Source: Parelaphostrongylus tenuis
Lineage: Eukaryota > Nematoda > Chromadorea > Rhabditida > Metastrongylidae
Length of the DNA stretch: 64,000 nucleotides
NCBI GenBank assembly: GCA_019055375.1
Contig: JAHQIW010000499.1
Coordinates: forward strand, 1-64,000
Direction of reading: 5' to 3'
Shown: positions 9,340-64,000 of the stretch, piece by piece
Position numbering within the stretch: position 1 is the first letter of the stretch
How the letters are laid out: each line of letters starts with the position of its first letter
Position numbers and translations under genes: made by a program
The notes under the pieces: generated by a model
Told to the model about the DNA's origin: nothing
Database searches by the model: none
Seen by the model: the letters and a program-made list of their open reading frames with translations, nothing else

Positions 9340-9445
9340 TCTGTCGGGGTAATGAACGTGTTTGACTGAAAGGAGTGCAAATCACTCTGACCTTATAAGG
9401 CTCTGAAAAAGGCCGACTAGTAAAAAAGTTAGCCACTGCATTATG
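9340..9445 (+). ncRNA. Decayed PLE 3' end with hammerhead-like remnant
   Basis: The PLE 3' UTR signature (TAATGAACGTGTTTGACTGA) is followed by GGCTCTGAAAAAGGCC and a GTAAAAAAGTTAGCC segment. This aligns with the 3' motif of the PLE at 41.64 kb. The CUGANGA core has lost its G8 (CTGAAAA) and the GAAA box is changed, so it is a fossil. Confidence 0.45.
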
Positions 9446-9906: not shown

Positions 9907-10211
9907 TATAAATAAAGAATAAAGCTCTCGGCGTTAATTAATCCCTGAGGGATGCGCTATGCATTCGACTTCAACTTTTAACTTCGTTTGAGGTGATTGA
10001 ATGCATATCTGGCCTTTACAATAACTCGCGGTGGCCTCCCGCTGAACCGAGTCAGTGCTGCTTATCCTCCCAGACAAGTCTGAAACCTGTCTGGTACCAA
10101 TTTGCTGACCCAGGAGGGATGGATGGCTTGGTGAGCCATGAGCGCGAGATCGAACCATTGACACCGTGTGCGACGCAGGGCACCTCTAACCACTGCGCCA
10201 CATGCGCTCAC
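9907..10211 (-). mobile_element. SINE family A, insertion absent from the paralogous copy
   Basis: This is a full-length SINE A on the minus strand, with a perfect A box at 10200-10190 (TGGCGCAGTGG) and a near B box GGTTCGATCTC at 10156-10146. The 3' tail reads CTTTATTCTTTA. In the second copy of the block (35061-35080) the flanks join directly, as TTTCGAC followed by CATATTTACG. The insertion is therefore visible against an empty site. No clear target-site duplication can be read. The open frame 9993-10370 runs through it and is spurious. Confidence 0.8.
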
Positions 10212-10487
10212 CATATTTACGTTTTATCTCTAATGTCAATAAAGAAAATTGTCTCTGTAATAGCCGCTATTGATAGTAATCGAGAGATCAATGACATTTT
10301 TCCTATATTTCAACTCAAATACTCCAGTATAAACATTTCAGATCCAACAAACTCTCGCTACTTTTTTTGACTTCTACTTTTCACTAGACGAACCCCAATA
10401 ATTCTAGCAATCAATTCCTTATTTGTCCCCTTCTTAAACGTCGTAGAGTACCAATTGAACGTGTCTCTTTTTAATCTCGAGGAAAAC

Positions 10488-10612
10488 CAGGCTGTGTCAT
10501 TTTATAAGGCATTGTTGCTGACAGCTAGAGGGAGTTGGGCAATGGAGCTGGCTCCACGTGCGCCGCAGCGCGCATCACAACCACTCGGCCACGGCGCCCC
10601 CTCATTCTCCTT
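10488..10612 (-). mobile_element. tRNA-derived SINE, family C
   Basis: Read on the minus strand it begins GGGCGCCGTGGCCGAGTGG, whose GCCGAGTGG is an A-box typical of class II (Ser/Leu-type) tRNAs. A GC-rich stretch with CTGCGGCGCACGTGGAGCC and a GTCAGCAACAA segment follow. Other copies are at 13.5, 13.64, 35.4, 49.13, 60.8 and 60.93 kb. The B box is degraded. Confidence 0.6.
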
Positions 10613-11619
10613 GCATATAGTACACATTTCATCACAGTGATTGTATATTGAGAATCAATGAATGGCTTGCCAAAAATTGATGTCCGTCATTGCAGGCTAT
10701 CCAAGTTCATCGATAACTCTCAAATGCTTTTCGATTATCAATGCACTCGAAGCTGAGTCTCCATTGAATCAGAGGGGAAAAATTTCTTCTATTAGTCCAT
10801 AAGTATTAATTACTATTCGTTTATCTATTAGTGCACGCTTTATCGTGGCTATCTCGATACTGGAAATGGACACACCGATTTTATATATTCTACGTAGTAT
10901 TGTGAGTAATTTCTTTTGACCACTGCAAATAACAATGTGTGGTTTTTGGGGAAAGCGACTTAGACAGTCTACTACAAGAAAGTCATGCTGATACTAGAGC
11001 AGTTGGTGTAGCGGATAGTTGGTAGCTAAATCTATGGTCGCCCAATATTCCCACCCACTTCAGCGAACTAGGGATAGGTCTTCAGAGCGACGTCCCACGC
11101 TACACGCTACTGCAACGAGCCAGTCTATTTCTACGAACTGATCATGAGGAAGTTTGAGAACTGATTATCAATTAGGAAACCATCTATAGCAAGCAGAAAA
11201 ACGAGGTGTAAGAAAAGACTATGACGGATGGACTGAAGAAAATCATTGGCTTGTTGCTTCACATGAGTGTACTGCAACAGCCCGAACTCAAATTTCACTA
11301 AAGTAAACACTCACCTATCCATAACTCCAATTTGAGACCAGATATCATGGTGAGAGCTTGACTTTTGTAAGTCATGAATCACTTATATCTGGCAGATAAT
11401 GAGGGTGTACTACAGCTACATGGGACACCTTTTACACGCTATGCCAGCCGCTGAGCTCGTCATCAGGAATCACAAGGATGCATATGAGTCCAAAACGCAT
11501 CGCAGGAATTGACGAGTCGATGGTGCAACTCGGCTCAAGGAAAGAGCATAATTCCCTACGTCAGTACGAAAATTTGCGATGAAAGAGGGTACACCTTCGA
11601 GGCGATTATTCACGCAGGC

Positions 11620-12090
11620 GCGGACACTAATCCTAGGCCTACCGAGCGTCTTAGAGACGGTGTAGCGATGAATCTAACGACAATCTGCTAAATGATGGGA
11701 GACGTCCCTGTACAAACAACTTGTATTGGAATATTCCCCTATCAGAGGCTTTATTTAAAAAGCACTTTTTGACAGGGATCTGTAAGAAGAATGCAAAGGT
11801 TTGCCAGAAGAATTCGTGCAAGAGAATGGGCGCAGGAATGGATGGAAAGAGATGCAGAACCAAAGTGGTGTAATAGTGCTTAGATGGATGGATAAAAGAG
11901 ACGGTAGAATGGTTCTCACAGCGCACGGCTCAACCATGAATCAGTAGGCGCGAGTTTGAGAAATCACAGATACTATGTATGCTTCGCGAATCTACCACGA
12001 CTTCCTACGTAAAATTAAACTCAAATAGCTCAAGATAGGCGTTTGCAGTGACTATATAGGGTTCGACGCTCCTATTCGGCCGACATCCAG
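11620..12090. other. Unassigned spacer between two duplicated blocks
   Basis: Nothing is recognised in this 470 bp. Overlapping minus-strand open frames (11651-11937) have no recognisable features. Confidence 0.35.
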
Positions 12091-12599
12091 CTGCGTTCTC
12101 AAAGAGCCATCAACCATACCACGACGACGTAGTCGTCCTCCTGAATGCTACCGGATGTTCGCAGAAGTTCGATAACGTGCTTGAGCCCCAAAAAAATCGG
12201 GGAAGTTTTTACGAGATGTAACATTGTAGCAAGTGGATGTGATTAGAATGCTTTTATACTTTTCCTCTAAACTGTACTTCTAAAAGGGCCAGGTATTTCA
12301 CATAGGGATTGTATATTCTAGGTGAGTATCATAATGTACATTGTAGTCTGTATTGGTCACAGATAGGTTTTTTAAGGTAAGAGGAGTGTCCTTTGCATCT
12401 GTCATAGCACTTTGTTGGATCCATGATCACAATGTTCTTTTTTTCCACTGTGCCGATCCCAGTACTTCCAATATTCAACCCGATCTTCGTCTTCTTCTTG
12501 AACGGTGTGAAATATTGGCTGACCGAGTCTCCTTGCAATCTGGCGGATAGATTAGCTGTGGCGTCCCATACGGCGCTGGTGCTGACTGCCAGAAAGAGT

Positions 12600-12908
12600 T
12601 AGGGGGTTGAGCACGGCTCCACGCCTATGGCAAACCTCCCAAAGGAGTTTTGCAATCTTTTCGGGAATTACATGATAATTTAGGCAGCGCAGACGGCCCA
12701 TGACTCTAGAGAGCAAGTGGTGTCGCAGAGGTCCGAGGACCTTAGACAGAAAATGGTCCAAGTGGCGAGGGCAGCTGTCACCAACCTCAACAGTCAGTTC
12801 GATCGTGGGGCATTATTCGAACGGTCGCTTGACTTCATCCGGAGCACTCTATCTCAAATCGTAATTGATCCATTATTGCTCTCTCCACACAATCTCGTTA
12901 TCGTGTAA
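12600..12908 (+). pseudogene. Conserved unrecognised coding-like segment, copy 1
   Basis: Both copies of block 2 keep an open frame here. The last 63 residues (12717-12908) include QKMVQVARAAVTNLNSQFDR and an IRSTLSQIVIDP end. Just upstream in the same frame is MANLPKEFCNLFGNYMII, followed by a stop shared with the other copy. The opposite strand is also open over part of this stretch (12552-12761), so the coding strand is not certain. I do not recognise the family. It is most likely a remnant of a protein carried by the duplicated element. Confidence 0.35.
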
Positions 12909-13154
12909 CTGACTGCTATCATAAGGTTGCGTTCATGCAGCTGACTGTCAGATGAACTCAATAAAATTGTGAGCGGAACATAGCGCTTCCGTCACTTAGG
13001 CTATGCTCGGCCCACCACCGCGGTTTCGAGTTCGGCCCATATATAATCAGTGGTGCCCCACTGCTAACACTAAACACTCACCCACTGGATCCCACCACTG
13101 GCTTGTTATTTCAGGACCGAAACAGGCTCCGCCTCCATGTCATGCTCCGTCCGT

Positions 13155-13275
13155 TACAATAACATCTTCATTCACAATAACACCGTCAGCTACAATAACA
13201 TCATCACTTACTATAACACCGTCACCTACAATAACACCACTTACCATAACACTGTCAGTCATGATAACATTCATA
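13155..13275. repeat. Minisatellite of ACAATAACA units
   Basis: Six to seven degenerate units of about 17-18 bp follow the pattern ACAATAACAYCNTCANYT. They give the Thr/Ile/Ser-rich end of the open frame at 13003-13305. The same array, almost unchanged, is in the second copy of the block at 60436-60555, so it predates the duplication. Confidence 0.65.
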
Positions 13276-13489
13276 GTATCGACATATGACGATACTTCTC
13301 ATTAATCGCCACTCACATTAACTTAGTCATATGTTCGCATAACGATATGTCGTAATCAAGTATATATTATTTTTGCGCTCTTGTTATAGTGATACATGTA
13401 TATTGTTGGTTGTTTGGTATAACCCATATGAAGAATTTGAACTTTGCGCTCTTGTCCGTTGAGAGACGCAAGTTGACAGCTGGTCAAAA

Positions 13490-13560
13490 CAACAAGACCG
13501 CTGAACCTTCACCACAACGCGTGTCGCAACGAGCATCACAACCACTCGGCCAAATTGTAT
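13490..13560 (-). mobile_element. SINE family C fragment
   Basis: On the minus strand GGCCGAGTGGTTGTGATGC matches the 5' end of SINE C. It is truncated after about 65 bp. A forward copy lies 75 bp downstream, so the two make an inverted pair that is also present at 60.8-61.1 kb. Confidence 0.5.
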
Positions 13561-13632
13561 TAGAATGTACAAAGTGGTTAAATAATGTACAATGTACAAA
13601 TCAGTTGTTTCGTTTGATGTTGCTATAATAAA

Positions 13633-13800
13633 TGGAGGCGCCGTGACCGAGTGGCTGTGAAGTTGGTCGCGGCGCACATAAAGCCGAGCTCCATACCTCA
13701 ACCCTCTCCGACAGTCAACAACAACGCCTTATGGGGCGCTATAGCTAAACTATCCTTAAGATTGCAAGGACGCTCGCCTAACCATCTACAACGATGAAGA
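13633..13800 (+). mobile_element. SINE family C copy
   Basis: It starts GGAGGCGCCGTGACCGAGTGG (A-box core CCGAGTGG), then GTCGCGGCGCAC, GCCGAGCTCC and a GTCAACAACAACGCCTTAT segment. The tail reads CAAGGACGCTCGCCTAACC. Its length of about 165 bp is the longest form seen in this family. Confidence 0.6.
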
Positions 13801-16081
13801 AGACGAAAAACGAAGTGAATGTTCGCAGTTGCTGGTATAACCCATAGAAAAAAACGCTGTGAAGATAGATCAATAAAGTGTCTAAAAGTGATATGACAAA
13901 TGGTTGATCCCAGAAGAAATATATTGAGTGAGACGTTTATAATAATAGCGTTATGTAAAACATGACTTAAAAACGTGCATTTTTTCGAAAAGTTGGAAAT
14001 GCGTTTTCTCAGAGTAGTAGCCTTCGTGTTGAAAAGTAACGATTTCTAAAACAACTGGGCGCTCTTTGGACTAGATTTGCGTTTACGGAAATTTCTCTAA
14101 TAAAAATCAACTTTCCTTTCTGTAGTCACGAGGCTTTTTATGGAATCAAAATCCTACCATAAGCATAGTAAATTCGCGTTGAGGTTGAAAGGGTGGGCTG
14201 ACTGCTGTGAAAGCAAGATGTTACCGTTCTTGGCAATGGCACAAATAGAAATTGTCTTTTCTGGAAGCCGTACTTGGCACTGAAATCTTCATTTTCCAAG
14301 GTTTCAAATGGCTTTTCTAGTGATAAAGCTCTTTCTGGAAGGGCCAAGGACTCGGGACTGATTCCACGGAAATCGATTGCATGTGACAGGAATGTTATTC
14401 AAGAACAAGGATTTCAAAGACAATCAGGTGTTCTTCCAACCGTAAAATTGAAAAATTGGACTCCGATTGCAAAAGGTTATCTTTTTTTCATTAATGAATC
14501 GTACTAGAAAATTTTGTACATAAAACAAAACTGGTGCTGAAATCAGAAATTTTCAAGCTATTGGCTGACTATAAAAATATGAACAAAATAAGAAAATATG
14601 TTTAATAACACTTGGAAATATGCTCCCATTTTTTTGCAAAATCATCGCTTTGCCCTTGGAAATTGTACGTTACAAAAAGGACTGAACTTCATTTTACCAA
14701 GATTATTCATACGGAAGTCTTCTTAGTGATAATGCATTTATTGCTAGAGTTGGTGCTTCTTTGAAGTCTAAATGAAATGGAATTTTTTGGATCGCGCACT
14801 AATCTTCGCAAACGTGCAGACGAGGTGCTCAGCTGAGGATCAAAATGATTTTTACCGTCCACATAAAGCGCCAATAGCATTTATCACAAAGAGCAGAAAG
14901 GAGACGTAAAGGCGTTCAGAGCGCCATTTGGAGAGCTGGTAAAAATGTCATTGCAGTTCTGAAGACTTCAATCGTCAGAAAATGATGTGGGCAAAAAGAT
15001 TATGCGCAATCAAAAAGTGAGAGTTTGAGACTTGCATATTTTCGTCTAACTAAGCTCGGGAACACGTTGGCAAATGCACGATCTTCACTAAGAGATCGAC
15101 TACAGTTTGCTTTCATAGAACAGATTTATTAAGAAAAATGTTTTACCAAGAAGATATAGTAATGAAAGGAATCAGAGCTTAGATAATTAGAGACAATCTC
15201 CGTGAAATTTCAATCATCGCTTCAATTTTTCTACATTTCTCACTTGAAGACTCATGAATAACGAAAAATAGAAAAAAAATAGTATCAGTGCTTGTGATGA
15301 CTCACTCATAAACGTAAAGATCAGAAGGGAACACCAGTTATCGACGCATAGACCGTGTGAAAAGTAAGTATGAAATGTCTAATGTCCTGTCAATAAACTC
15401 ACTTTTGTGCTTTGGAAGGCATGCTTTTTCCATGTTTTCCTTCTCCGCTTGATGTTTCGCCTTCTTGTGGTGCGATTATGGTGGAGCGGCTCCTCACAGA
15501 AGAGCTTTTGCGTGATCCTTAGCGTCACGCTGACACATCGCTCTTGTTAAGGTCTAAGTGAACCTCAATCAACTTCACACTTATGAATGAAATCTGAAAA
15601 TAAAAATTTACCGTTTTGTTGACATACATGGGGGCGGCTACTTTTGTCGAATTACACCAGTAGATGGGCCACACATGCAAAACAATCTTTGGCGATAGAG
15701 CGAAGTAACGCTTATCAAACAAAATTTAGGCGTAATATGAAAAGTGTAGCCCGCAAAGCCGCGTCACTGGCGCGTTAACCACGCGAAATATAAAGATTTT
15801 AATTAATGCTTATGGAGAGTTTTTCGCTATGATATATGAACGATCTTCTTCAGAGTAGTTTGGTCGTAAATATGCATTTATCAAAGCACTTAAAGAAAGA
15901 CTCAAGTGAGGAGGTTTGTTGTGAATAATTGAGCAAGAATTACTGAGAGCACAGCTTTTTCTTAAGCTGAATTGATTTTGAATCTGCAATTGTTAAGATG
16001 TTAGTTGATTGCAAGTATATCCAAGGGGAAGCCTTTTCGATTAAATAATAAACCAGTTTAAAAAGGTGAAATTTATAAAGT

Positions 16082-16330
16082 TCATGTGGTAGCGTGCATC
16101 TTGTGAGCAAATATGAAGGTTTTTTTTCTATCATATCGACAACCACTTACTAGACACATCAACTTGTTTACAATTTTAAATAGGAGTAGCGCATCTGTCA
16201 GAGACAGGGACACTGAAGTTCGCATCTGCTGATAAATTACTGGAATCAAAACAATTAACACCAGATTTATCCACAAGATATCACTAAAATTGCTTAACAA
16301 CATTATTCAAGGTATGCACCATCAGCCTTA
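16082..16330 (-). pseudogene. ORF-like repeated segment, copy 1
   Basis: The minus-strand translation gives GRACRNELRLMVHTLNNVVK, a stop-containing stretch, then VDKSGVNCFDSSNLSADANF. The same segment is open in the copy at 63437-63649 and partly open at 23599-23724 on the plus strand. Three copies keep a similar protein reading, but nucleotide changes are not clearly concentrated at third codon positions. It may be coding or just a repeat. No family is recognised. It abuts the hammerhead motif at 16348. Confidence 0.35.
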
Positions 16331-16347
16331 ACTCATTTCTACAAGCT

Positions 16348-16392
16348 CTGCCCAGCTGACGAGATCGCAAGTTCGAAACACGTGTATCGGTC
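16348..16392 (+). ncRNA. Type I hammerhead ribozyme motif, block 2 copy 1
   Basis: The intact core CTGACGA (16356-16362) is followed by stem II GATC-GCAA-GTTC, with one U-U mismatch and a GNRA tetraloop. GAAA (16375-16378), a minimal stem III CACGTG and TA at the cleavage position come next, then TCGG. Stem I pairs CCCAG with TCGG through one A-C mismatch. Downstream, about 190 bp present in the paralog at 63.69 kb is missing, including the conserved arm, so this copy is truncated on its 3' side. Confidence 0.65.
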
Positions 16393-16599
16393 GTTTTTGT
16401 AGGTTTTAGTAGCCTTGAACCAGCGGCAGGGCATAATGTTTTCTACTCCATACGCCCTTGAGACATTGCTTAGTCAGTAAAAACGACGAGGGCAAGAACT
16501 GGTAACCTAGCACGCCCTTCATTGATTTTGTGTTCATTTGTGATAACACCAAAATTTTGCGTGATCTCGATAGGAGCCTGTACGAGTTCAAAAATCAGC

Positions 16600-32195: not shown

Positions 32196-34124
32196 ACTTT
32201 TTATTATAAAGAATTATTAAGACTCGAAGATTTAAATCGCATTGTCCTTCGTACAACTTATTAAATTTGATTCAATACCAAAAGCAATATGACTGCCCAG
32301 TAAACTACAGTTTCGCTCCACGCATAATAACTATACTTGCTTCAAAAGCATGCGAGCGAGTAAAGAAATTGTGTTCTATCAGATTAAAGCAAGAAACTCA
32401 GAATTTCAACAGGGCAGAGAAATAAAACCTTATCAAACAAATAAATTCGCCCACCGCTGCGCTCACAATTTGTACGCCGTCCCTTGAAGTTTTAAAAATC
32501 AGTCGAATACGAAGATAAGTCTGCATGTTAAGGAAAAGTTTTTGTTTGAACACACCATTTTACTCTTTGCCCACGAGCCGTCCAGTGGCCAATGAGGCAC
32601 AATAATTTTAGATTAACTCTCTATCAAAGCTGTTCACTTCGCCGTAGCAACGACGTACAAATATTACGTTCTGCCTTCAGAGTGCTTTACATGCTTCGCT
32701 ATCTTTTATGTGGGCTTTACAGCAAAGTTTTGATAATCATATAATTGCTCGAAAAATGCAGTTTTAAAAGCTTGTCTGCTTTTCAAAAGCTTTATCAATA
32801 TGCTATAGCAAAGAATTCGAGATCACGCCTCACATTCTAATTAGTCCGTCGTTTGAACTTCGTATTGGTTTGCGCTGTTAATTGTATAGCCACATTCATA
32901 CTCTGAAGAAAATACACGATCAGAAAAAATGATATATTACTGAAGGCCTCCTATAGAGGTCTTCTCTAGTAAAAACAACGCTTTTTTGTCCTAATTTCCG
33001 CTTTCAATATGGAGGCTATATCAATGAGGAAAGAACACTTCTCCATTCTTACTTCCTTCTTTTTGACGTTATGTAAAAGATATAATAAAAAAAAACACAT
33101 GTTCTTCAATGTATGACATTTTCAAGAAGCTTATTTAGAAATGCACAAATTACTCTTATAGAAACTTGGGGCACATTTCCCTCATTCGCACCCATCTTTA
33201 AAAAATGAAGCAGTCTTATCTTTTCTGACATTTTAATGACTATCTAATAGCATGGATCCCAGAAATTTGAAGGGTGTTTTTTTTTTTCTCAAATGGCTTT
33301 CATATTATGCTGTAATAGCAAAAATGAAATTTTATTTCACACTCAGTTATCCTTAGTTGGACACAGCTTTTTGTTCACACGTTCAATAACCATTCGATAG
33401 AACAGATCTCAACACTTTTAAAAATATGTTTTCAGGAAACCTTCTTAGTGCCTTGTTACAGCCAAAAGAATATGAGTTCGCACCCAGCGCCGCGTTGATC
33501 GCGCAGTGCAATTCATATGCGGTTTGCGCCCAATGGGAAAACCACTACTCTTCTAGCTAACAACGCTCAAAGAAGTAATCCTCAGAGCCAGGTATACCGT
33601 TGGAATTGTCAAAAACTGTGCCATCGAATGCCAATCTAAATGAAAAGCTGTGTCCAACGAAAAGTAGATAAATATGGAATGCAACTTTCTTCCTAGTGCA
33701 CAACGAGCTGAGAGACTTCTTTTCAAAAGCAAGCACAACATTAATATTCCCGTAATTTAGACCATCGATTGGTTATCGAAAGTTAATGGCTTGATGACAG
33801 TGCTGCGTCATCTATCCACATAGTGGATGAAACTATGCGCAGCGTATGAGGTGAGATCTTTATTTCAGTGTTGCGGCGCAACAGAAAGTTTCTTTGTAAA
33901 ATCAAAAACACTATTAGATTTGCGAAAATTTGCACTATCGAACAATTACTAAGTTTCTTGAGAAAATGCTTTGCTAAGCGAAAAATGTTTGAATGTGGAA
34001 TAAATTTACACTTTTACTGCTACAGCGTAGTATAAAGGCCATTGAAAAATAAAATACTCCTTTCAACTTCTTGAAATTTGACATATCAAAATGTCTAAAA
34101 AGAGCAAAAAGTGCGTCTTCCTAA

Positions 34125-34345
34125 ATATAGGTGCGAGACGATTACATTGGACAAACGGGTAGACCATCTGCATTCCTGTAAATTAATACCTAGCTGCGAA
34201 GCGTAATTCTCATCTAAAACTCCACCAGGCACATATCAGGAACAAAACCAAAAGAGTAGATCTTGACGGAAACTCATTAACCCCGCACAGGAATCTAAAA
34301 CTTCCGAGCCTAGTAATCACGGGTGACCTTTCTCCACACCTCAAG
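34125..34345 (+). pseudogene. Decayed PLE GIY-YIG endonuclease (paralog of 8.92 kb)
   Basis: ACAAACGGGTAGACC near 34151 is the decayed GETGRP codon string. The sequence then follows the copy at 8931 with a deletion after TCTAAAACTTCCGAG that removes about 60 bp present in the paralog. It is fully non-functional. Confidence 0.6.
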
Positions 34346-34499
34346 CTACTCTTCCTGGCCTAAGACAGGCACAATTTTAAGCCTGTACTAAAACTAAGCG
34401 ACCGGTCTCCAATAAATAATTGCAGTGAACATCTATACGGCGAGTGTTTTGAAATGAAGCTCTTTACTAACTGATCCAAAAATTTGTTCCTCGCGTTTT

Positions 34500-34600
34500 C
34501 TGTCGGGTTAATGAAGGTGTTTGACTAAAAGGAGTGCAAATCGATCTGACCTTCTGAGGCTCTGAAAAATGGCCGGAATCGTAAAAACGTTAGCCTTTGT
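34500..34600 (+). ncRNA. Decayed PLE 3' end with hammerhead-like remnant
   Basis: TAATGAAGGTGTTTGACTAA (PLE 3' UTR signature) is followed by GGCTCTGAAAAATGGCC and GTAAAAACGTTAGCC. The layout is as in the 41.64 kb motif, but the core is mutated, as in the paralog at 9.4 kb. Confidence 0.45.
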
Positions 34601-35369
34601 ATTATATTATTGTGCTGTTTTACTGCATTACTAGCATCTAAAAAATATCATTATTAATATTGCTAACCAAGGAACAGCTTATCAGGAGAAAAACCAAGAG
34701 ATTATTCTAACTATTCCGAGGTTAGGAGTTAGTTGGTCGTGAAAGCTAATTTGGTAGTTTTCAACGAAATATATACTTTCTTGTTTATAGACGAAGCCCT
34801 CGAAAAGTCAGCTGTTATTATGAAAGCGTTTTGTTGAGCCTAATTTGAGAAGAGATTACATTTCTGTCCATAAGTGGGTTTTGATCCTGATGAATTGATC
34901 AAATTTAATGAAAAAGCTTCAATAAGGTTCGTTTTAATCGAAACACTGCTTGTGCTTCCTTGCTAACACTCGTTTCTGTAGGGAATATCGAATAATTGCA
35001 AAAATGCTATTTCTAAAACTATCATTTAAATTTTCCATGCTGTTCTATTTATATTTATCCTTGTTTCGACCATATTTACGTTTTATCTCTAATGTCAGTA
35101 AAGAATTGTCTCCGTTATTGCAGCTAATGACAATAATCAAAAGATCAATCACATTTTTCCTACATCTCAAATCAAATACTCCAGTATAAACATTTCAGAA
35201 CCAGCAAACTCTCGTTGCTTTTCTTTATTTCTACTTTTTCACTAGACGAATCCCAGTACTTTTAACAAATATTTCCTTATTCGTCCTCTTCTTAAACGTC
35301 GTGCGGTACTGGTTGAGCGAGTCTCCTTTCAGTCTCGAAGAAAACAGGCCGTGGCATTTTATAAGGCGT

Positions 35370-35470
35370 TGTTGCTGACTGCTAGAGAAAGTTGGGCAGT
35401 GGAGCTGGCTTCACGTGCGCCGCAGCGCGCATCACACCCACTCGGCCATGGGCTTCTCCCCATCCACCTT
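35370..35470 (-). mobile_element. SINE family C copy (paralog of 10.5 kb)
   Basis: The minus strand reads GGCCGAGTGGGTGTGATGC, then GCGCTGCGGCGCACGTGAAGC. It sits in the same place as the copy at 10.5 kb, so the insertion predates the block duplication. Confidence 0.6.
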
Positions 35471-36669
35471 CTTTCATATTGTACACACAATTCATCAAAG
35501 TAATTGTATGTTAAGAGTCAATGAATGGCTTGTCAAAAAATGATGTCCCGCATTGCAGGCTATCTAGGTTCATCAATAACTCTCAAATGCTATTCGATTG
35601 TCAGTGCACTCGAAGCTGAGTCTCCATTGAATTAGAGGGGAAAAGTTTTCTTATTAGTACATAAGCATTAATTATTACTCGTTTATTTATTAGAGCACGC
35701 TTTATCATGGTTATCTCGATACTGTACATGGCGCACCGATTTCGCATATTCTACGTAATATTCTGAGTAATTTCTTTTGACCACTACAAATAACAATGTG
35801 TGGTTTTTGGGGAAAGTGACTTAGACAGTCAACTACAAGAAAGTCATGTTAATACTAGTGCAGCGGGTGAAGCGGATAGTTGGTAGCGAAATCTGTGGTC
35901 GCCCAATATTCCCACCCACTTCAGCGAACTAGGGATAGGTCTTCAGAGCGACGTCCCACGCTACTGCAACGAGCCAGTCTATTTCTACTAACTGATCATG
36001 AGGATGTTTGAGAACTGATAATCAGGGGACCAACTATAGCAAACAGAAAAACGAGGAGTAAGAAAAGACGACGGTCGATGTAATGCAGAAAATCATTGGC
36101 TCGTGCCTACAGATGAGTGTACTGCAACTGCCCGAACTCAAATTTTAGTACAGCAAACACTCACCTATCCGTGACCCCTATTTGTGACCAGATATTGTGG
36201 TGAGAGCTTGAATTTTGTAGATCATAGATCACTCACATTTAGCTGATAATAAGAGTGTACTACATGGGCCACCTTTTATACGATATGCCAGCCGCTGAAA
36301 TCGTCATCAAGAATTGCAAGGATGCATATAAGCCAAAAAGCATCGCAAGCATTGACGAGTCGACGGCGCAGTTCGGTTCAAGAGAGGAATCTAATTCTCT
36401 TTGTCAGTGCCAAAATCTGCGATGAAAGGGTGTGCACCTTCAAGACGATCATTTACGCACTAAAAACAATCTGGAGTTTACAGTCTAAACGCAATGTTGT
36501 ATGTCGTACTTGGGTATGGGTCCTCGGATGTCAAAGGATTGACATGTGAGGAGAAGGCTGTGATAATCTTGTGTTTTGTAATTTCAGCATTGATATAGTT
36601 TCTCTCTTTAATGCTGATGTTTGTATTGAATTCCTTGGATAGTTTTCTTCAAGAACCTGTTATATTTAG

Positions 36670-40079: not shown

Positions 40080-41411
40080 GGATAGTATGGTTCTTAACGT
40101 TAATAACATCCCAGTTGCTAGGACACATTCCAGCCTATCTGACGAGCATTCACATTTCCCTGGACGTCTACGTAACTCGAAGCCAAACAGCGCGTACCTA
40201 ATGGAGTCACACGACGTCACTGATCTATATACCAACGTGTCGAATGACTCCGCATTACAAGCCACACATGAGCTTCTGATACAACACCACGGAGCTGTAA
40301 ACGTGTATGGCTTGTCAAAGTTCATGATCCTATTGAAAAACTGCCTGAACTGCTCAATCTTCAAATGGTCCGGAAAATATTATACTCAAATGAGAGAGCT
40401 GGCAATGGGGCAACGACTGGCCTCCAGCCTGGCGATTGCCTTTATGTCTGAAGTCGAAGCACCACTGATGGATCTCCGACCATTACTGTACAGTAGGTAT
40501 ATAGATGATTGTCTGGTCATCTGTTCCAGATTGTTTGATGAACAGTCAGAGTATATAAAATTCAATCGTGAGATACCAAAAGACGACTGGTTCCCATTCT
40601 TGAACGTGCGAATAAGCTTAACTGAGAGCGGCTACATAACGAAGTGGTACAGAAAGCCAAGTAATAAGAGTATCCTGGTTCACTATCTCTCTTCTCATCC
40701 CTCACATACGAAGAAGGCGCTAAAAAAAACATGTTTCGAACAGCAGCCAATGCATGTACCGGGGAGGAGCACAGAGTAGAATCTGTGAAACTGGATCGGT
40801 AAATAGCCACTTCTAATGGATACGAATTTGTAGCCCCTCGCCTTAGGTTTAGAGGAAGTAATGCGCCGCTGAACGAAAACTTAAATGAAAGGAAAGTCTC
40901 GTTTATCCTTTCGTTCCTTTCAAATGAGATTAATACAGCTATAAAGCGCTATTTGAAAAAGGAGGGTTCAGAGAAATCGGTGGCCATTATTGAAATACCA
41001 CCGACTACTCTAAAACTGCAACTAGTTCGCAATCGTTTATATGACCGTCTCTGCATAACGAAAGATTGTAAAATATGTCCTAACGGCAGAGACGGTGATT
41101 GCATGAGCGTAGGTACAGTCTACCTAATCTCCTGCAAAGCGTGACGTGATAAATATATTGGCGAAACGGGTAGGCCGCTCTATGCTTGCATAGAAGAACA
41201 CCTAGCTGGCAAACGTCCTAGTAGACGGAACACCCCGCTAGGGAAGCATAGAGCACAGAAGCAGGACGGAGCTGATTTTGAAATCGAAGTCACTATCCTT
41301 GCGCAGGAGCAGAAAACATCAGCGCGAAAGATCTTGGAAGCGTTTTGGATTAATACGACCAATCCAACCATATAGCGCATGGAAGAATGCCTCGTTATCA
41401 CTCGTGATTAG
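40080..41411 (+). pseudogene. Penelope-like element: reverse transcriptase plus GIY-YIG endonuclease
   Basis: This is the best-preserved coding region in the window. The RT palm (frame 40087-40730) shows motif A as HDVTDLYTNV, then RELAMGQRLASSLAIAFMSE (motif B), RYIDDC with both catalytic Asp (motif C) and PFLNVRISLTESGY followed by KWYRKPSNK. A frameshift in an A-rich run near 40723-40730 moves the frame. The reading resumes from 40731 and includes a Cys-rich CKICPNGRDGDC and VYLISCKA. The GIY-YIG domain is DKYIGETGRPLYACIEEHL (41146-41202), ending in KILEAFWINTTNPTI. Stops lie at 40800, 41142 and 41373. The N-terminal half of a PLE protein is missing. RT copies the element RNA and the endonuclease nicks the target; neither can be made from this copy. 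The few lesions suggest fairly recent activity. Confidence 0.92.
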
Positions 41412-44804: not shown

Positions 44805-44992
44805 TGAGTGATATGCAAAATTCCAAGTGTCACCTGGGATTCAAACTCGTACTTCACGCTTCACGATGGCTCATGCTAACCATTGCATTGCCAGTGCGCT
44901 TTTTCCTCTTTGTCCTCTATGCATCCTTTAAAGGGTGAACAGCGAGTTCGAATCCAGTCGGACGCTTTAAATTTTGCATATCACTCCACAGT
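44805..44992. mobile_element. Inverted pair of SINE family B fragments
   Basis: A minus-strand copy (44805-44905) carries GGTTAGCATGAGCC and GAGTTTGAATCCCAGGTGACA with a TTTTGCATATCACTC tail. It is followed by a plus-strand fragment (44940-44990) with GAGTTCGAATCCAGTCGGACGC and the same tail. The pair directly abuts the hammerhead element that begins at about 44995. Confidence 0.55.
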
Positions 44993-45062
44993 ACTGGGCA
45001 TACCTGATAGTCATTTTTTGAGCAACGCATGTCAGTGGTCCGTCAAAGAGGGCTGACTTATA

Positions 45063-45107
45063 GAGCCCGATGGACGTGTTTCGATCTTGCAATCATGTCA
45101 GTCGGAC
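45063..45107 (-). ncRNA. Decayed type I hammerhead, locus 1 copy A
   Basis: The minus strand has CTGACAT where the core should read CUGANGA (two changed bases), stem II GATTGCAAGATC, intact GAAACACG and then TCCATCGGGCTC. Stem I partner sequences are still present. Core damage makes it almost certainly inactive. Confidence 0.55.
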
Positions 45108-45379
45108 AGTTACCCTTTCTCGTCTTTTGCTAATCTCTGTGGGTGCTCTAGTCCTCAGACTAAGAGTTTGCGGCGACGAACGTTTTACACTCTATGTTCA
45201 TTAGAATTTTCACCAAACACAGAGCGTTGCGCACTTGATTGCTCTTAGCTTTCATATTCTGTATATCATATCTTTCGTTTCAAGTGGTTTCTTAAGACCT
45301 CAGCTTAAATTTCAGTGTGCCTAATAATCATTTTGTAAGCCACGCATGTCAGTGGTCTGTCAAAGGGTGCTGATTTATA

Positions 45380-45434
45380 GAGCCCAATACACGTGTTTCG
45401 ATCTCGCGATCTCGTCAGTCGATATATCGGGCTC
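45380..45434 (-). ncRNA. Type I hammerhead ribozyme, locus 1 copy B
   Basis: All core elements are intact on the minus strand: CTGACGA (45418-45412), stem II GATC-GCGA-GATC with four pairs and a GNRA loop (45411-45400), GAAA (45399-45396), minimal stem III CACGTG, and TA at the cleavage position (45389-45388). Outer stem I pairs GAGCCC with GGGCTC, and the inverted arms extend this stem by some 60 bp. An asymmetric internal loop (GATATATC side) separates the core from the outer stem, which is where type I hammerheads make tertiary contacts. Activity is inferred, not shown. Confidence 0.72.
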
Positions 45435-45560
45435 TATAAGTCAGCCCTCTTTGACAGACCACTGACATGCGTGGCTCGAAAAATTATTATCAGGCATATC
45501 GAATTTTGAGCTGTGGTGTCAAGAAAACATTCGAAACGAAAGTACTGGATATACTTTCTA

Positions 45561-54090: not shown

Positions 54091-54745
54091 GCTATTGCTT
54101 TGTTTCATAATTTCTTCTGCACTATTATTATACTCAATTTTACCGGGTTAATGCCAAAAGGCTGCATTAAGTAGGCGAATGTTCTAATAGCTTTCAACCA
54201 CTAGGTCTAGAAGGCACGAGCGCCGCTGGTTAATTCACTGGAAAATCAAAATGGATTAGCGCTAGATAGCTTGATTGTGTTTTGTGAATATAAACTGAAC
54301 ATCACTGTAGAGAAGACAGTCGCAGAGAGTTAGCATTAGGCACAAGCGTCTCGACAAAGGCAATGCGAGCTTTCAATCCAGCACCTGAAATTTGGGAGCA
54401 GGTATTCGGATAAAGCGGTAGCTGCGTCACTTGCCAACTGAGTAAAATGAGTTTCCACGAAGTAATGTCTTAGTGGGCACTTCATGCTTTGATTGACACG
54501 ACCACGCAGAACACTTGACCATCCGCGAAGGTGCTGTGCTGTGACCGCAAAGGAAAGAGTTTCCTAGTCTATCACCACTGAAAATGAGTCACGGATCTGG
54601 TGGGAGAACAGGCGCAACGCCTACAGGATGCTTTGCGGCAAGCGTTTGCCAAACCATTGAATGTTTATCTTTCATGTTCAGCAAATTATGCTCTCGATTT
54701 CCTTGCAGCTGCTGGTCTTGCTGTTTTGGGAACTGCTTCACAGCT
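54091..54745. other. Unassigned sequence
   Basis: No gene or repeat is recognised. The open frame at 54600-54788 has a hydrophobic C-terminus but runs into the adjacent hammerhead element. Confidence 0.3.
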
Positions 54746-54801
54746 CCTTTCATTATTATTTGAGCCAACATGTCATGTGGTCTGGTAAAGGCTCTTGTAC
54801 A

Positions 54802-54844
54802 GCCCGAGACACGTGTTTCGTCCTTACAGACTCATCTGCCGGGC
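54802..54844 (-). ncRNA. Type I hammerhead, locus 2 inverted copy
   Basis: On the minus strand six-pair stem I (GCCCGG with TCGGGC, one wobble) flanks CAGATGA (54838-54832; canonical would be CUGAUGA, so U4 is changed). Stem II GTCT-GTAA-GGAC (three Watson-Crick pairs, one U-G and a GNRA loop), GAAA, CACGTG and GTC at the cleavage site follow. Every other core position is canonical. Confidence 0.68.
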
Positions 54845-55157
54845 AGAACCTGTCGTCTGAAACGAAACACGTGTCTCGGGCTGTAAAGAACCCTCACCAG
54901 ACCACATGACATGTTGGCTCGAATAATAATGAAAGGATCTATTGAAAGTTGAGCGTGGTCTTAGTAAAGCACTCGAAGGAAAGGTATAATATGATAAAAA
55001 TACCAGCCAGCTAGCAATCGAGTGCGAAAACACTCTGTGTTAGGTGAAAATTTCGTCCGACATAGACTGTAAAACGTACGTCGTCGACAACTCTCTGTAA
55101 GGAGTGCAACGCTCTTGAGAGAACTGACTATAAAAAGATCGACAGACGACGGGTTCT

Positions 55158-55200
55158 GCCCGGCTGATGAGTCTGTAAGGACAAAACACGTTTCTCGGGC
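55158..55200 (+). ncRNA. Type I hammerhead, locus 2 direct copy
   Basis: Stem I GCCCGG with TCGGGC flanks a perfect CTGATGA (55164-55170). Stem II GTCT-GTAA-GGAC follows, then AAAA in place of GAAA (G12 changed), CACGTT and TC. The G12 change should abolish cleavage. The lesion is at a different place from that of the inverted copy, so the family consensus has a complete core. Confidence 0.68.
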
Positions 55201-55315
55201 TGTACAAGAGCCCTTACCAGAACACATGACATGTTGGCTCAAATAATAATGAAAAGATCTATTGAAATTTGAGCGTGGTCTCAATAAAGCATTCGAAGGA
55301 AAGGTATTATATGCT

Positions 55316-56275
55316 TCACAGCTAAGATCAGTCAGCGCCTAGGTCTGCGGCGAACAGCTGCGGAGGTTGAATGCAGCAGTGAGTGACAAGCGTTCGGAGG
55401 AAACCACTCTTGCCCTTCTCTGGGGTAATGCGACCTCACAATATGAAGACGACAACTACATCTTGAAAAAAGGGGTGGGGCCACGGTGTTTCCATGCACG
55501 GCTCAGTTCTGACATTGCTTCATCGGAATTTCCTTGCGCGCCAAAGCGACATCTGTGGGAGAACACATGTAGACTACTAGCTTGAAAGTGACCCTCACTG
55601 ACTTCTTAGATCACCAGCTTCATAACTTCTAAGGAGGAGGAGTCCAGTTTTGTCCACTAGTTGACTAATTGGATTACTTCTGATTAGGAGGAATACAAAT
55701 GGAAAACTGATCTGATTCGCTGGAGAGGAATTTTCTATGAAGGGATAGTAATCAATCGAACTGAGACTTGAGAATAATGGTTCACGTCGCCGCTTTTTGA
55801 AAGCACTCTTTACAGCGTTGTAGCATCCAGATAAAAACTTATGCTTCACACTTGCATGAATACCTTGAATGAACTGATAAGCGACTGGACAATCGACATG
55901 TTTAGCTGTATCCCACCCACCATCGATCACATGGAGTTCTATCCACACCGTCAAAATCGGTGTCGCGAATACAGACGCCACATTTTCGAGCCGGCTTCAA
56001 TCAATCGCTGTTCACTGCCACATCTTAATGAGAGTGTAGTGAATGGTGCCGAATTTGTTTATCTCGTGATCATAACTTATGAAACTGCACATGTGAAGAA
56101 CTCGATAGCAGATTAACATTATCGTTAGCAGACTGCTGAGAGCTAGGTTGTTTTGCTGTCCTTTGCAAATAAGAAATATTTAGATTTCGATGAGTTTTGA
56201 GATAGCAAAGCGACATTGCTTTCCAAGGGGAAAACGTTCCTTATAATGGAGATTTCAGCAGGTATGATGAAGAAA
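55316..56275. other. Unassigned sequence
   Basis: A 128-residue minus-strand frame (55595-55981) and a 91-residue plus-strand frame overlap; neither has recognisable motifs. Confidence 0.3.
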
Positions 56276-58880: not shown

Positions 58881-59368
58881 TTTGCTTGCAACTCAATTTT
58901 CTTAAGTGCTTCTGTAACTTCATAACACTGTGAAAAAAAGCACTAAAAACATAAGAAATACTGACTAATGATTTTTTCACATAATCAAAATGTGGATATT
59001 CCATCGTCTTGCTTACCTTTTCGTCATAGTATTCTTCCTTGAGACATTCTCGACTCATGAAATAAGTAGTGCCTACTTGAGGGAGCTTTTCACTACGTCG
59101 AGAAAAATGACAAGATAGTCCAAAATTAGCAACAACGGCTCGGCTCCAAACTGAACTACCACGAGACAGTTGAAGAAGAACGTTCTGAAAGCAAATTGTG
59201 AAGAAAAGAATGGGGGTCCATTAGATCAAATGAGGATATGGATCAATCGGGAAATGAAAAACATAACGAAAGGAATACCATGCTTGTTAGATCACGGTGT
59301 ATAATCGCCTCAGAATGAAGATATTGCATTGCCAAAGCGATGTCGAGACTGTAGCGAACCCGCTGACA
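58881..59368. other. Unassigned sequence before block 2 copy 2
   Basis: No gene is recognised. Homology with 12.09 kb begins abruptly at about 59370. Confidence 0.35.
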
Positions 59369-59879
59369 CCTGCGTTCTCAAACAACCATCAACCATACCA
59401 CGACGACGTAGTCGTCCTCCTGAATGCTACCGGATGTTCGCAGAAATTCGATAACGTGCTTGAGCCCCAAAAAAATCAGGGAAGTTTTTACGAGATGTAA
59501 CATTGTAGGATGTGAATGTGATTAGAATGCTTTTATACTCTTTCTCTGAACTGTGCTTCTAAAAGGGCCAGGTAATTCGCATAGGAATTGTATATTATAG
59601 GTATGAGCATCATATTCTACATTGTAGTCTGTAATGGTCACAGATAGGTTTTTTAAGGTAAGAGGAATGTTCTTTGTATTTGACATAGCACTTTATTTGA
59701 TCCATTATCACAATGTTCTTTTTTTCTACTGTGCCGATCCCAGTACTTCCAATATTCAGTCCGATCTTCGTCTTCTTCTTGAACGGCGTAAAATATTGGT
59801 TGACCGAGTCTCCTTGCAATCTGCCGGACAGCTTGGCTGTGGCGTCCCATACGGCGCTGTTGCTGACTGTCAGAAAGAG

Positions 59880-60189
59880 TTAGGGAGTTGAGCACGACTC
59901 CGCGCGCATGGCAAACCTCCCAAAGGAGTTTTGCTATCTCTTCGGGAATTACATGATAATTTAGGCAACGCACATGGTCCATGACTCTAGAGAGCAAGTG
60001 ATGTCGCAGCGGTCCGACGACCTTAGACAGAAAATGGTCCAAGTGGCGAGGGCAGCTGTCACCAACCTCAACAGTCAGTTCGATCGTAGGGCATTATTTG
60101 AACGGTCGCTTGACTTCATCCGGAGCACCTTATCTCAAATCGTAATTGATCCATTAATGCTCTTTCCACACAATCTCGTTATCGTGTAA
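59880..60189 (+). pseudogene. Conserved unrecognised coding-like segment, copy 2
   Basis: The reading here is HDSREQVMSQRSDDLRQKMV and then VARAAVTNLNSQFDRRALFE (open at 59974-60189). It is preceded in frame by MANLPKEFCYLFGNYMII and the same stop as in copy 1. Most differences from copy 1 leave the protein similar. The minus strand is open for 129 codons over 59653-60042, so strand assignment is unresolved. No family is recognised. Confidence 0.35.
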
Positions 60190-60435
60190 CTGACTGCTAT
60201 CATAAGGTTGAGTTCATGCAGCTGACTGTCAGATGAACTCGATAAAATTGTGAGCGGAACATAGCGCTTCCGTCACTTAGGCTATGCTCGGCCCACCACC
60301 GCGGTTTCGAGTTCGGCCCATATATAATCAGTGGTGCCCCACTGCTAACACTAAATATTCACCCACTGGATCCCACCATTGGCTTGTTATTTCAGGACCG
60401 AAACAGGCTCCGCCTCCAAGTCATGCTCCGTCCGT

Positions 60436-60555
60436 TACAATAACATCTTCACTCACAATAACACCGTCAGCTACAATAACATCATCACTTACTATAACAC
60501 CGTCACCTACAATAACACCACTTACCATAACACTGTCAGTCATGATGACATTCAT
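60436..60555. repeat. Minisatellite of ACAATAACA units, copy 2
   Basis: Nearly the same array as 13155-13275, with the same number and order of variant units. It has not changed length since the block duplicated. Confidence 0.65.
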
Positions 60556-60784
60556 AGTATCGACATATGACGATACTTCTCATTAATCGTCACTCACATT
60601 AACTTAGTCATATGTTCGCATAACGATATGTCGTAATTAAGTATATATTATTTTTGCGTTCTTGTTATAGCGATACATGTATATTGTAGGTTTTTTTTGG
60701 CATAACGTATATGAAGAATTTGAACTTCGCGCTCTTGTCCGTTGAGAGACACAAGTTGGCAGCTGATCAAAACAACAAGACCGC

Positions 60785-60850
60785 TGAACCTTCACCACAA
60801 CGCGCGTCACAACGAGCATCACAACCACTCGGTCACGGCGGCTCCGTTAA
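60785..60850 (-). mobile_element. SINE family C fragment, paralog of 13.5 kb
   Basis: The minus strand reads GCCGCCGTGACCGAGTGG. This copy keeps more of the 5' end than its paralog at 13.5 kb. Confidence 0.5.
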
Positions 60851-60927
60851 TTGTATTAGAATGTACAAAATGGTTAAATAATGTACAACGTACAGATCAG
60901 TTGTTTTGTTTGATGTTGTTATCATAA

Positions 60928-61100
60928 ATGGAGGCGCCGTGACCGAGTGGCTGTGATGTTGGTCGCAGCGCACATGGAGCCGAGCTCCATACCTCAACCC
61001 TCTCCGAAAATCAACAACAGCGCCTTATGGGGCGCTACAGCTAGACTATCCTCAAGATTGCAAGGACGCTCGCCTAACCATCTACGCCGATGAAGAAGAC
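60928..61100 (+). mobile_element. SINE family C copy, paralog of 13.63 kb
   Basis: Starts GGAGGCGCCGTGACCGAGTGG with body and tail as at 13.63 kb. It is 78 bp downstream of the inverted fragment, so the same inverted pair is present in both copies of the block. Confidence 0.6.
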
Positions 61101-63419
61101 GAAAAACGACGTGAATATTAGAAGTTGCTGGTATAACCACATAGAAAAAAACGTTTTGAAGACGGATCAATAAAGTGTCTAAAAGTGATATGACAAATGG
61201 TTGATTGCAGAAGAAATATATTGAGTAAGACGTTTATAATAATAGCATTATGTGAAACATGACTTAGAAACATGCACTTTTTCGAGGAGTTGGGAATGCG
61301 TTTCCTCGGAGGTGTAGATTGAAAAAAATTCGTATTGTAAATTGATGATTTCCAAGACAACTGGGCGCTCTTTGGACAAAATTTGTGTTTACGGAAATTT
61401 CTCTAATATAAATCAGCGTGCCTTTCTGTAGTCACGAGGCGTTTTGTAGAATCAAAATCCTACCATGAGCATAGTAAATTCGCGTTGAGGTTGAAAAGGT
61501 GGGCTTACTGCAGTGAAAGCAAGATGTTACCTTTCTTGGCATTGGCACAATCAGAAATTGTCTTTCCCGGAAGCCGTACTTGGCACTAAAATCTTCATTT
61601 TCCAAGCCATCAAATGACTTTTCTAGTGAAAAAGCTCTTTTCTGGAAGGGCCAAGGACTCAGGAACGATTCCACGGAATTCGATTGCATGTGATAGGAAT
61701 GTTATTCAAGAACAAGGATTTCAAAGACAATTTGGTGTTCTTCTAACCGTAAAATTGAAAAATTGAACCCGTTTGCAAAAGGTTATCTTTTTATCATTAA
61801 TGAATCGTACTATAGAAATTTTAATCATAAAACAAGACTGGTGTTGAAATCAGAAATTTTCAAGCTATTGGCTGACTACAAAAATATGAACAAAATAGGA
61901 AAATATGTTTAAAACACTTGGAAATATGCTCCCATTTTTTTGCAGAATCATCGCTTTGGAAATTGTGCGTTCCACAAAGGATTGGAGTTCATTTTGATAA
62001 GATTATTCATACAGAAGTCTTCTTAGTGATATTGCATTATTTGCAAGAGATGGTGCTTCTTTGAAGTCTATACGAAATGGAATTTTTTTGGAGCGTGCAA
62101 TAATCTTCGCAAACGTACAGCGGGGTGCTCAGCCGAGGATCAAAATTATTTTTACCGTCCACAAAAAGAGCCAATAGCATTTATCATAAAGAGCAGAAAG
62201 GAGGCGTAAAGACGTACAGAGCGTCATTTGGAGAGCTTGTAAAAATGTCATGGCAGTTCTGAAGACTTCAATCGTCAGAAAATGACGTGGACAAAAAGAT
62301 TATGCGCATTCAAAAAGTGAGAGTTTGAGACTTGCATATTTTCGTCTAACTAAGCTCGGGAACACGTTGGCAAATGCACGATCTTCACTAAGAGATCGAC
62401 TACAGTTTGCTTTCATAGAACAGATTTATCAAGAAAAATGTTTTACCAAGAAGATATAGTAATGAAAGGAATCAGAGTTTAGATAATTAGAGACGATCTC
62501 CGTGAAATTTCAATCATCGCCTCAATTTTTCTACATTTCTCACTTGAAGACACATGAATAACGAAAATAGAAAAAAAAATAGTATCAGTGCTTGTGATGA
62601 CTCACTCACAAACGTAAAGATCAGAAGGGAACACCAGTTATCGACGCATAGACCGTGTGAAAAGTAAGTATGAAATGTCTAATGTCCTGTCAATAAACTC
62701 ACTTTTGTGCTTTGGAAAGCGCGCTTGTTCCATGTTTTCTTCTCCGCTAGATGTTTCGGCTCCTTTTGGTGCGATTATGGTGAGGCGGCTCCTCATTCAA
62801 GAGCTTTTGCGTGATCCTTAGCGTCACGCTGACACATCGCTCTTGTTAAGGTCTAAGTGAACCTCACTTAAATTCACACTCACGAACGTAATCTGAAAAT
62901 AAAAATTTACCGTTTTGTTGACATACATGAGGGCGGCTACTCTTGTAGAATTACACTAGTAGATGGGCCACACTGGCAATCTATGCCGATAGAGCGAAGT
63001 AACGCTTATCAAACAAAGTTTAGGCGTAATATGAAAAGTGTTGCCCGCAAAGCCGCGTCACTGACACGTTAACCACGCGAAATATAAAGATTTTAATTTA
63101 ATGCTTATTGAGAGTTTTTCGCTATGATATATGAATGATCTTATTCAGAGTAGTTTGGTCGTAAATAAGCATTTATCAAAGCACTTAAAGAATGACTCAT
63201 GTAAGGAGATTTGTTGTAATAATTGAGTAAGACTATACTGAGAGCACAGCTTTTTCTCAACCTGAATTGATTTTGAATCTGCATTTGTTAAGATGTTAGT
63301 TAATTGCAAGAATATTCAGGGGGAACCTTTTGATTAAATAATAAACCAGTTTAAAAAGGTGAAATTTATGAAGTTCATGTGCTAGCGAGCATCTTGTGAT
63401 GCAGATACGAAGGTTTTTT

Positions 63420-63649
63420 TTCTATCATAACGACAATCACTTACTAGACACATGAACTTGTTTACAATTATAAATAGGAGAAGCGCATCTGCCAGAGACA
63501 GGGACACTGAAGTTCGCATCTGCTGATAAATTACTGGCATCAAAACGATGAACACCAGATTTACCCACAAGAGATCGATAAAATTGCTTAACAACACTAT
63601 TCAAGGTATGCACCATCGGCCTTAACTCATTTCTACAAGCTCTGCCCAA
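63420..63649 (-). pseudogene. ORF-like repeated segment, copy 2 (open)
   Basis: The minus strand reads MGRACRNELRPMVHTLNSVV, KQFYRSLVGKSGVHRFDASN and SADANFSVPVSGRCASPIYN without a stop for 70 codons. Its paralog at 16.1-16.3 kb has stops. The family is unknown. The left part of the frame ends exactly at the hammerhead at 63650. Confidence 0.35.
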
Positions 63650-63690
63650 CTGAAGAGATCGTAAGTTCGAAACACGTGTATCGGCCTCTG
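63642..63690 (+). ncRNA. Type I hammerhead ribozyme motif, block 2 copy 2
   Basis: The core is complete: CTGAAGA (63650-63656), stem II GATC-GTAA-GTTC with one U-U mismatch (63657-63668), GAAA (63669-63672), CACGTG and TA (63679-63680). The stem I strands GCCCAA and TCGGCC pair with two mismatches, which look like decay of GCCCGA with TCGGGC. Confidence 0.68.
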
Positions 63691-63760
63691 GAAGTCAGCC
63701 CATCTTTAACAGACCACATGACATGCGTGGCTCAATAATGATTCTTTGGCTCTCATTGTA
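63690..63760 (+). repeat. Hammerhead-element arm
   Basis: GAAGTCAGCCCATCTTTAAC, AGACCACATGACATGCGTGG and CTCAATAATGATTCT match the arm at 45429-45495. It follows the hammerhead directly, as at 45 and 55 kb, which shows this is a third, monomeric copy of the same element family. Confidence 0.65.
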
Positions 63761-64000
63761 TTTCAGCCGGACGCCTTTTTTATTTGATAATATACGTTTT
63801 ATATTCTCAGGAGTAAGTTGCACTTCAAAGATCTGATAAAAATCTGTCCACAACTTGTAATTAGTCATCAGCTTTCTAATCAGGTTTCTTTAGGTTTTTG
63901 TAGTCTTGAACTAGCGGCAGGGCATAATATTTTCTACTCATGCGTCCTTGAGACATTGCTTAGTCAGTAATAATGACGAGAGCAAAAACTCGTAAACTAG

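Follow-up and report, generated by a model that had tools for sequence, protein, structure and literature searches.

The 566-bp element at positions 54746-55311 of the window (the whole 64,000-nucleotide stretch of Parelaphostrongylus tenuis DNA analysed here, on contig C393) is probably a non-coding, non-autonomous retroelement that belongs with the animal retrozymes and was inserted by the machinery of a Penelope-like element (PLE) that is abundant in the same genome. Comparison of the copies at sequence level shows that the inverted arm and the tandem units represent a single insertion with one target-site duplication, and that the outer ends lie at two preferred sites of the repeat unit, A (~63 nt past the ribozyme cleavage site) and B (~111 nt past it), almost all two-armed copies having one A and one B end. 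In the literature consulted, PLEs are proposed, not shown, as the movers of animal retrozymes; PMC7229834 names them as strong candidate partners, both kinds of element carrying type I hammerheads, occurring in tandem and co-existing. The coincidence of retrozyme and PLE end geometry in one genome makes this proposal directly testable.

Layout of the element and its hammerheads

The composite is laid out as follows, with unit positions referring to one real unit of the array on contig C885, numbered from the ribozyme cleavage site:

54734-54745: target-site duplication, left copy of the 12-bp direct repeat TGCTTCACAGCT
54746-55311: element proper, 566 bp, a single insertion between the two copies of TGCTTCACAGCT
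54746-54859, minus strand: arm A, an inverted partial copy that runs from unit position 62 (site A) at its outer end to unit position 272 at its inner end
54802-54844, minus strand: type I hammerhead with a mutated core (CAGATGA, read by eye); RF00163, 31.4 bits, E 8e-6
54860-54861: two bases (AA), filler of the head-to-head junction
54862-55311, plus strand: arm B, about 1.4 units head to tail, made up of unit 310-323, one complete unit and unit 1-117
54876-55194, plus strand: one full unit from cleavage site to cleavage site, 319 bp (323 bp in the C885 reference unit)
55158-55200, plus strand: type I hammerhead with a mutated core (AAAA for GAAA, read by eye); RF00163, 25.5 bits, E 7e-4
55312-55323: target-site duplication, right copy of the 12-bp direct repeat TGCTTCACAGCT

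The outer end of arm B, at unit position 117, is site B. The 12-bp direct repeat that bounds the composite is absent from the initial annotation, which had described direct repeats 320 bp apart and an inverted repeat of ~75 bp. The former are real, extending over 108 nt at 91 % identity or, alternatively, pairing 54862-54993 with 55181-55313 at 90 %, while the latter exists at a greater length than given, with 54742-54859 pairing with 55143-55260 over 118 nt at 93 % complementarity. No open frame of at least 150 amino acids occurs in the 566-bp element, and the GC content of the 2-kb stretch around it is 44 %.

Two hammerheads on opposite strands had also been recognised at these coordinates, and both are there, with scores (obtained from a 651-base stretch) below the Rfam Hammerhead_1 (RF00163) gathering score of 34. 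By eye, the CTGATGA of the family is replaced by CAGATGA in the minus copy, while the plus copy reads AAAA for GAAA and GTTTC for GTGTC. With these core changes both window ribozymes look decayed, and they are probably inactive. An Rfam scan of the whole window reported no hammerhead at gathering. With E values up to 5 the minus copy was listed (E 7.9e-4), while the plus copy appeared only as Hammerhead_3 (55145-55192; 26.0 bits, E 0.32, gathering score 48.5). Covariance-model hits, the absence of which would have told against the initial annotation, reach gathering in sibling copies and in neither of the two window copies. Twelve sibling hammerheads reach gathering (34.7-34.9 bits), comprising eight of the nine motif-found hammerheads of the C885 array (L009) and two each at L010 and L026. 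The cores of the C885 array include eight CTGATGA motifs on the minus strand and one on the plus strand. The predicted fold of the retrozyme unit is better than that of 100 out of 100 shuffles (z -5.4).

A hammerhead pattern scan of 327,332 bases of fetched loci, blind to the minimal PLE hammerhead described below and to that of L049, found 100 canonical positions, all of which resemble the retrozyme family. The L049 hammerhead (92-139; 29.5 bits, below gathering) is a different type I hammerhead; it is situated next to a PLE and may point to additional families of retrozymes.

The retrozyme family and its outer ends

A search of the genome (481.5 Mb in 5105 contigs) with the element gave at least 199 scored matches, with 40 of the 5144 first-look candidates scored. 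The unit, 319 bp in the window, is repeated head to tail up to multimers within the family, and the C885 array, for example, contains partial units in addition to seven full ones, each of 322-323 bp. Other tandem copies in the genome and element boundaries shared among the copies, the absence of which would have told against the initial annotation, were both found, the boundaries being ends A and B. Filtering at an identity of at least 84 % and a span of at least 150 left 63 clusters, of which 44 are two-armed, 17 single-armed and two complex; the loci are the top matches to two two-armed queries, so that the two-armed share is too high. L003 represents the window locus a second time, on a different contig, and was dropped from the locus counts, leaving 43 distinct two-armed loci. 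Contigs C393, C1014 and C2980 carry both window retrozyme loci at matching spacing and are probably haplotigs, and copy counts in the assembly may therefore be inflated. The second retrozyme locus of the window is as follows:

45005-45541: Locus 1, an older two-armed relative, the long arm of which (minus strand) ends at A (~67) and the plus arm at B (~114)

The ends of Locus 1 and its imperfect 14-bp duplication (44991-45004 and 45542-45555, two mismatches) were counted by eye, without a control. It belongs to a more divergent subfamily with 5934 first-look candidates genome-wide.

Target-site duplications were called from 8 bp upwards, with one mismatch allowed from 11 bp up, and swapped flanks served as the control. 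They were found at 27/43 distinct two-armed loci against 8/886 swapped-flank pairs, and at a score of at least 12 the corresponding values are 17/43 and 0/886. The 27 duplications are mutually different, 12 bp being the commonest length. All 27 loci have one A and one B outer end, under class limits (A = 30-92, B = 95-132) that were chosen after the ends were seen. The corrected A ends have a median of 63, with 25/27 falling within 57-72 and two at 42-43, while the corrected B ends have a median of 111, with 27/27 within 106-119. When the raw ends of all 44 two-armed copies are taken without the duplication filter, 36 are A/B, five are B/B and three have another end, with no A/A copy among the 44.

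For 16 of the two-armed loci the script reported no duplication. These were read by eye together with L003, and at least four duplications missed by the script were recognised (L010, the first locus of L014, L026 and L030). Two or three of these 16 loci break the A/B rule. The second locus of L028 (4436-5601) and L073 (343-1259) have a duplication by eye and a second end at about unit position 19 rather than at A, and L044 may be a true B/B copy; these ends count against the preferred explanation. The two flanks of L068 mirror each other, and this locus looks like a duplicate created in inverted orientation by the assembly. Five of the seven single-armed copies with a duplication (L017, L019, L022, L027 and L040) start at unit 282-292, within the 5' strand of hammerhead stem I, which is perhaps the transcript start.

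When the flanks of the 2.8-kb C885 composite are joined, five element-free places match end to end (86-88 %) and two further places in part (75-76 %). These are paralogous copies of the flanking repeat, not alleles, and the three of the five that were read (C2171, C2170 and C282) each have a single copy of the duplicated sequence. On this basis the C885 tandem array and its inverted arm were most likely inserted as one event.

The type I hammerhead with a short stem III, the ~320-bp head-to-tail units, the non-coding and dispersed nature of the copies and the 12-bp-class duplications support the initial assignment of the window element to the retrozyme type. According to the available text on metazoan non-LTR retrozymes (Cervera and de la Pena 2020, PMC7229834), these share with it the type I hammerhead, units of ~300 bp in dimers to multimers, low GC, the lack of LTRs and, when present, duplications of more than 4 bp. 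The non-coding element described here has all of these traits, with a head-to-tail unit within ~150-450 bp. The words 'inverted' and 'nematode' are absent from the main text of that paper as available, which describes no inverted arm and no fixed pair of insertion ends, whereas the present element has A and B. The inverted arm had been held to fall outside the usual description; this is true of the retrozymes in that text, but not of Penelope elements, for which inverted copies are known (PMC3846280, available text). Plant LTR retrozymes also have a hammerhead and circular RNA as the proposed intermediate (PMC4918200, available text), and differ in their type III hammerhead, LTRs with PBS and PPT, 4-bp duplications and length of ~600-800 nt (PMC7229834, available text).

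The Penelope-like element and its end geometry

Two decayed PLE fragments occur in the window:

40081-41373, plus strand: decayed PLE, with an RT piece at 40081-40779 and GIY-YIG-like pieces at 40803-41373
4941-6071: second decayed PLE fragment with RT and GIY-YIG-like pieces (tblastn)

The first of these, which from motifs read by eye we take to be a PLE with GIY-YIG, has an RT piece that scores 27.4 bits against RVT_1, below the cut-off of 29.6. The window PLE piece has at least 37 matching proteins among 147 candidates, the named organisms being Angiostrongylus or Parelaphostrongylus, which points to a metastrongyloid-like nematode as the probable host; the genome has no relatives among the bacterial and archaeal genomes compared. 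A genome search with this piece gave 10544 first-look candidates, of which 150 were scored. At least 12 among the 150 have an open frame of exactly 893 amino acids. Tandem copies are spaced at ~2985 bp on C2880 and C2909, and head-to-head pairs are present. The PLE leader carries a minimal hammerhead, recognised by eye, the core of which is identical in the 12 pieces having it, and these span two ~10 % divergent subfamilies. Rfam gave no report for this leader hammerhead at E 0.1, and the predicted fold of the leader has a z of +0.8.

Of ten head-to-head PLE pairs fetched, seven were readable (C406, C360, C240, C4780, C1100, C72 and C3405), the others being left out on account of a match to the contig end (C1257 and C1771) or of one side without a match (C4864). 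In 7/7 the raw ends lie 56-70 and 104-123 nt past the element's own cleavage site, one of each, and most raw retrozyme ends fall at the same distances. The match at C3405 over-runs, and its end B would lie at ~103 if its 11-bp duplication is real. Duplications of 8-13 bp, called without a control, flank the first five of the pairs named above. A genome search with the PLE leader gave at least 43 matches, but it ranks long matches first and thus allows no fair count of A versus B ends. The 12-bp duplication at L079/L080 on C1100, AATAATGAAAGG, is the retrozyme A-site sequence, and this PLE appears to have been inserted inside a retrozyme copy.

Homology between the PLE leader and the retrozyme unit was considered and rejected, as the local score of 10.0 was equalled by 230 of 500 shuffles in one test and by 182 of 500 in a second. 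This lack of similarity beyond chance counts against the preferred explanation; as far as the sequences go, the retrozyme and the PLE share end geometry, not sequence. PLEs furthermore encode an RT and an endonuclease, whereas the present element is non-coding and has a hammerhead with a canonical type I score. Of the hallmarks of an autonomous PLE, it lacks both an ORF with RT and GIY-YIG and homology to the local leader. It does have inverted and direct copies within one duplication and a tail-type difference in end length (27/27 A/B). In this it resembles the GIY-YIG PLEs of rotifers, where Penelope inserts contain direct and inverted pLTR copies in one insert, an optional short tail of 31 bp at one end and duplications of 8-10 bp (PMC3846280, available text). 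Neither two-armed retrozymes nor the A/B pattern is announced in the listed titles and abstract openings on retrozymes, PLEs and hammerheads. Retrozyme insertions with the PLE two-end signature are apparently a new variant, of which an earlier description is possible.

Insertion mechanism, template and alternatives

In the explanation preferred here, tandem copies would be transcribed and the hammerhead would cut the RNA to ~320-nt units, to be ligated into circles. The PLE protein would make a staggered break in the target DNA, and the 3' ends on both sides of the break would prime cDNA synthesis, at A from one side and at B from the other. The two reverse transcriptases would then proceed toward the RNA 5' end, often beyond one round, and their cDNA ends would be joined by microhomology of 0-4 bp or by a short filler. 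Although the initial annotation took the inverted arm to extend stem I, a second unit copy made from the opposite side of the broken target is the better reading of it; the arm would then be the second cDNA of a twin-priming event and not part of the ribozyme. Circles are proposed as the template by analogy with the retrozyme literature (PMC7229834, available text). The stricter version of this proposal, on which our belief is almost evenly divided, holds that there is a near-strict division of labour between the two DNA ends, which start on an RNA circle produced by the hammerhead, one of them at A and the second at B. The retrozyme would then owe its success to copying the spacing of the sites from the cleavage point and not the sequence of its partner.

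The Anolis PAc PLE likewise carries a hammerhead, of the minimal form, and starts reverse transcription internally at two sites, as is proposed for the present element. Its protein cuts the two strands of the target and extends each of them, and cDNA synthesis begins within the RNA at two adjacent sites, the source of the PLE tail (PMC11167929). In vitro, the start site is equal between the strands and ribozyme activity is dispensable for insertion (PMC11167929), so that neither the one-of-each rule nor a need for circles is predicted by the published PLE.

Several properties of the arms bear on the template. The B arm is the longer in 23/27 A/B loci with a duplication, and the arm exceeds one unit in 22/27 loci for B and 7/27 for A, which implies that the template was in most cases either circular or more than a single linear unit in length. 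In 28/38 composites the units resemble one another more closely than they resemble units of other composites, a set in which the window and L003 are both counted, and 87 % of the 703 non-independent pairs from the same set lie above the age expectation (mean excess 1.3 %). The units of C885 diverge by 0.3 %. Divergence between the inverted and the main arm is above that among the main units in 15/23 composites, below it in seven and equal in one, with means over shared positions of 6.4 % and 4.8 %, respectively. The two arms need therefore not derive from one RNA molecule.

That the same PLE machinery used a multimeric linear transcript instead of a circle is a serious possibility, which we rate somewhat short of an even chance. 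Such RNA would yield much the same products as circles, the published PLE inserts uncut RNA with ribozyme mutants having no effect in vitro (PMC11167929), the starts of the five single-armed copies at unit 282-292 could be a transcript start, and the slight excess divergence of the inverted arm fits different template molecules. The very high unit identity of C885 fits one small circle, but a homogeneous donor array would produce it too.

The refined junctions of 35 A/B loci have an overlap of 1-4 bp in 11 cases, none in two and 1-46 nt of filler in 22, and have the look of end joining. Annealing of the cDNA ends via long self-complementary stretches was rejected in view of these short overlaps and fillers. 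Inner stops at predicted RNA stems found no support, the six bases that follow having a pairing of 0.52 compared with 0.57 for random positions. Between the junction positions of a locus, predicted pairing is lower than in permuted pairs, and the hot spots of the inner junctions are not accounted for by the predicted RNA fold. A constant-sum test of the paired inner positions gave p values of 0.02, 0.03 and 0.14 at three tolerances and is not relied on.

Self-priming, in which the cDNA of a single priming event snaps back and copies itself into an inverted arm, has been suggested for the Penelope elements of rotifers, with an antisense template; inverted structures with junction palindromes are abundant there and are read in this way by the authors (PMC3846280, available text). 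It is an unlikely source of the retrozyme arms, since the second end would be expected anywhere or running into the primer, while a second preferred site ~48 nt off is seen in 27/27 loci, and the junction overlap is confined to 0-4 bp in 13/35 refined loci, with filler in the other 22. Two-sided priming fits better because the second end sits at A. For PLE integration, too, the one-A-one-B pattern speaks for priming on either side of the break rather than for self-priming, and two-sided priming would account for the head-to-head copies of both PLEs and retrozymes.

Mobilisation by a LINE, for example of the RTE type, through one-sided target-primed reverse transcription is improbable. Inversion at the 5' end, which could produce the inverted arm, is known for L1, and an RT-like fragment at 6453-6920 of the window looks RTE-type by eye, but this fragment has no Pfam match at E 0.01. 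Furthermore, no poly-A or simple-repeat tail follows end B in the flanks inspected, and the outer end of the inverted arm lies at A instead of being scattered, with an identical A/B pair in the PLE. A foldback or MITE-like DNA transposon carrying a hammerhead by chance would explain why the two ends bear inverted arms and why the target site is duplicated, but is very improbable given the non-equivalent ends (A and B ~48 nt apart), the variable inner junctions, the single-armed copies and the arrays of seven full units.

The window also contains larger repeats. A repeat of at least 4.3 kb (12088-16510 and 59367-64000; 92 % identical) includes an 18/36-bp minisatellite (13147-13258 and 60428-60539) and, near its end, a hammerhead-like stretch (16341-16390 and 63641-63742). 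A dispersed repeat of more than 4 kb occurs at 7060-11616 and 32245-36459 with 80-85 % identity, the former copy being interrupted at 9912-10209 by a ~300-bp repeat that is present at several other places.
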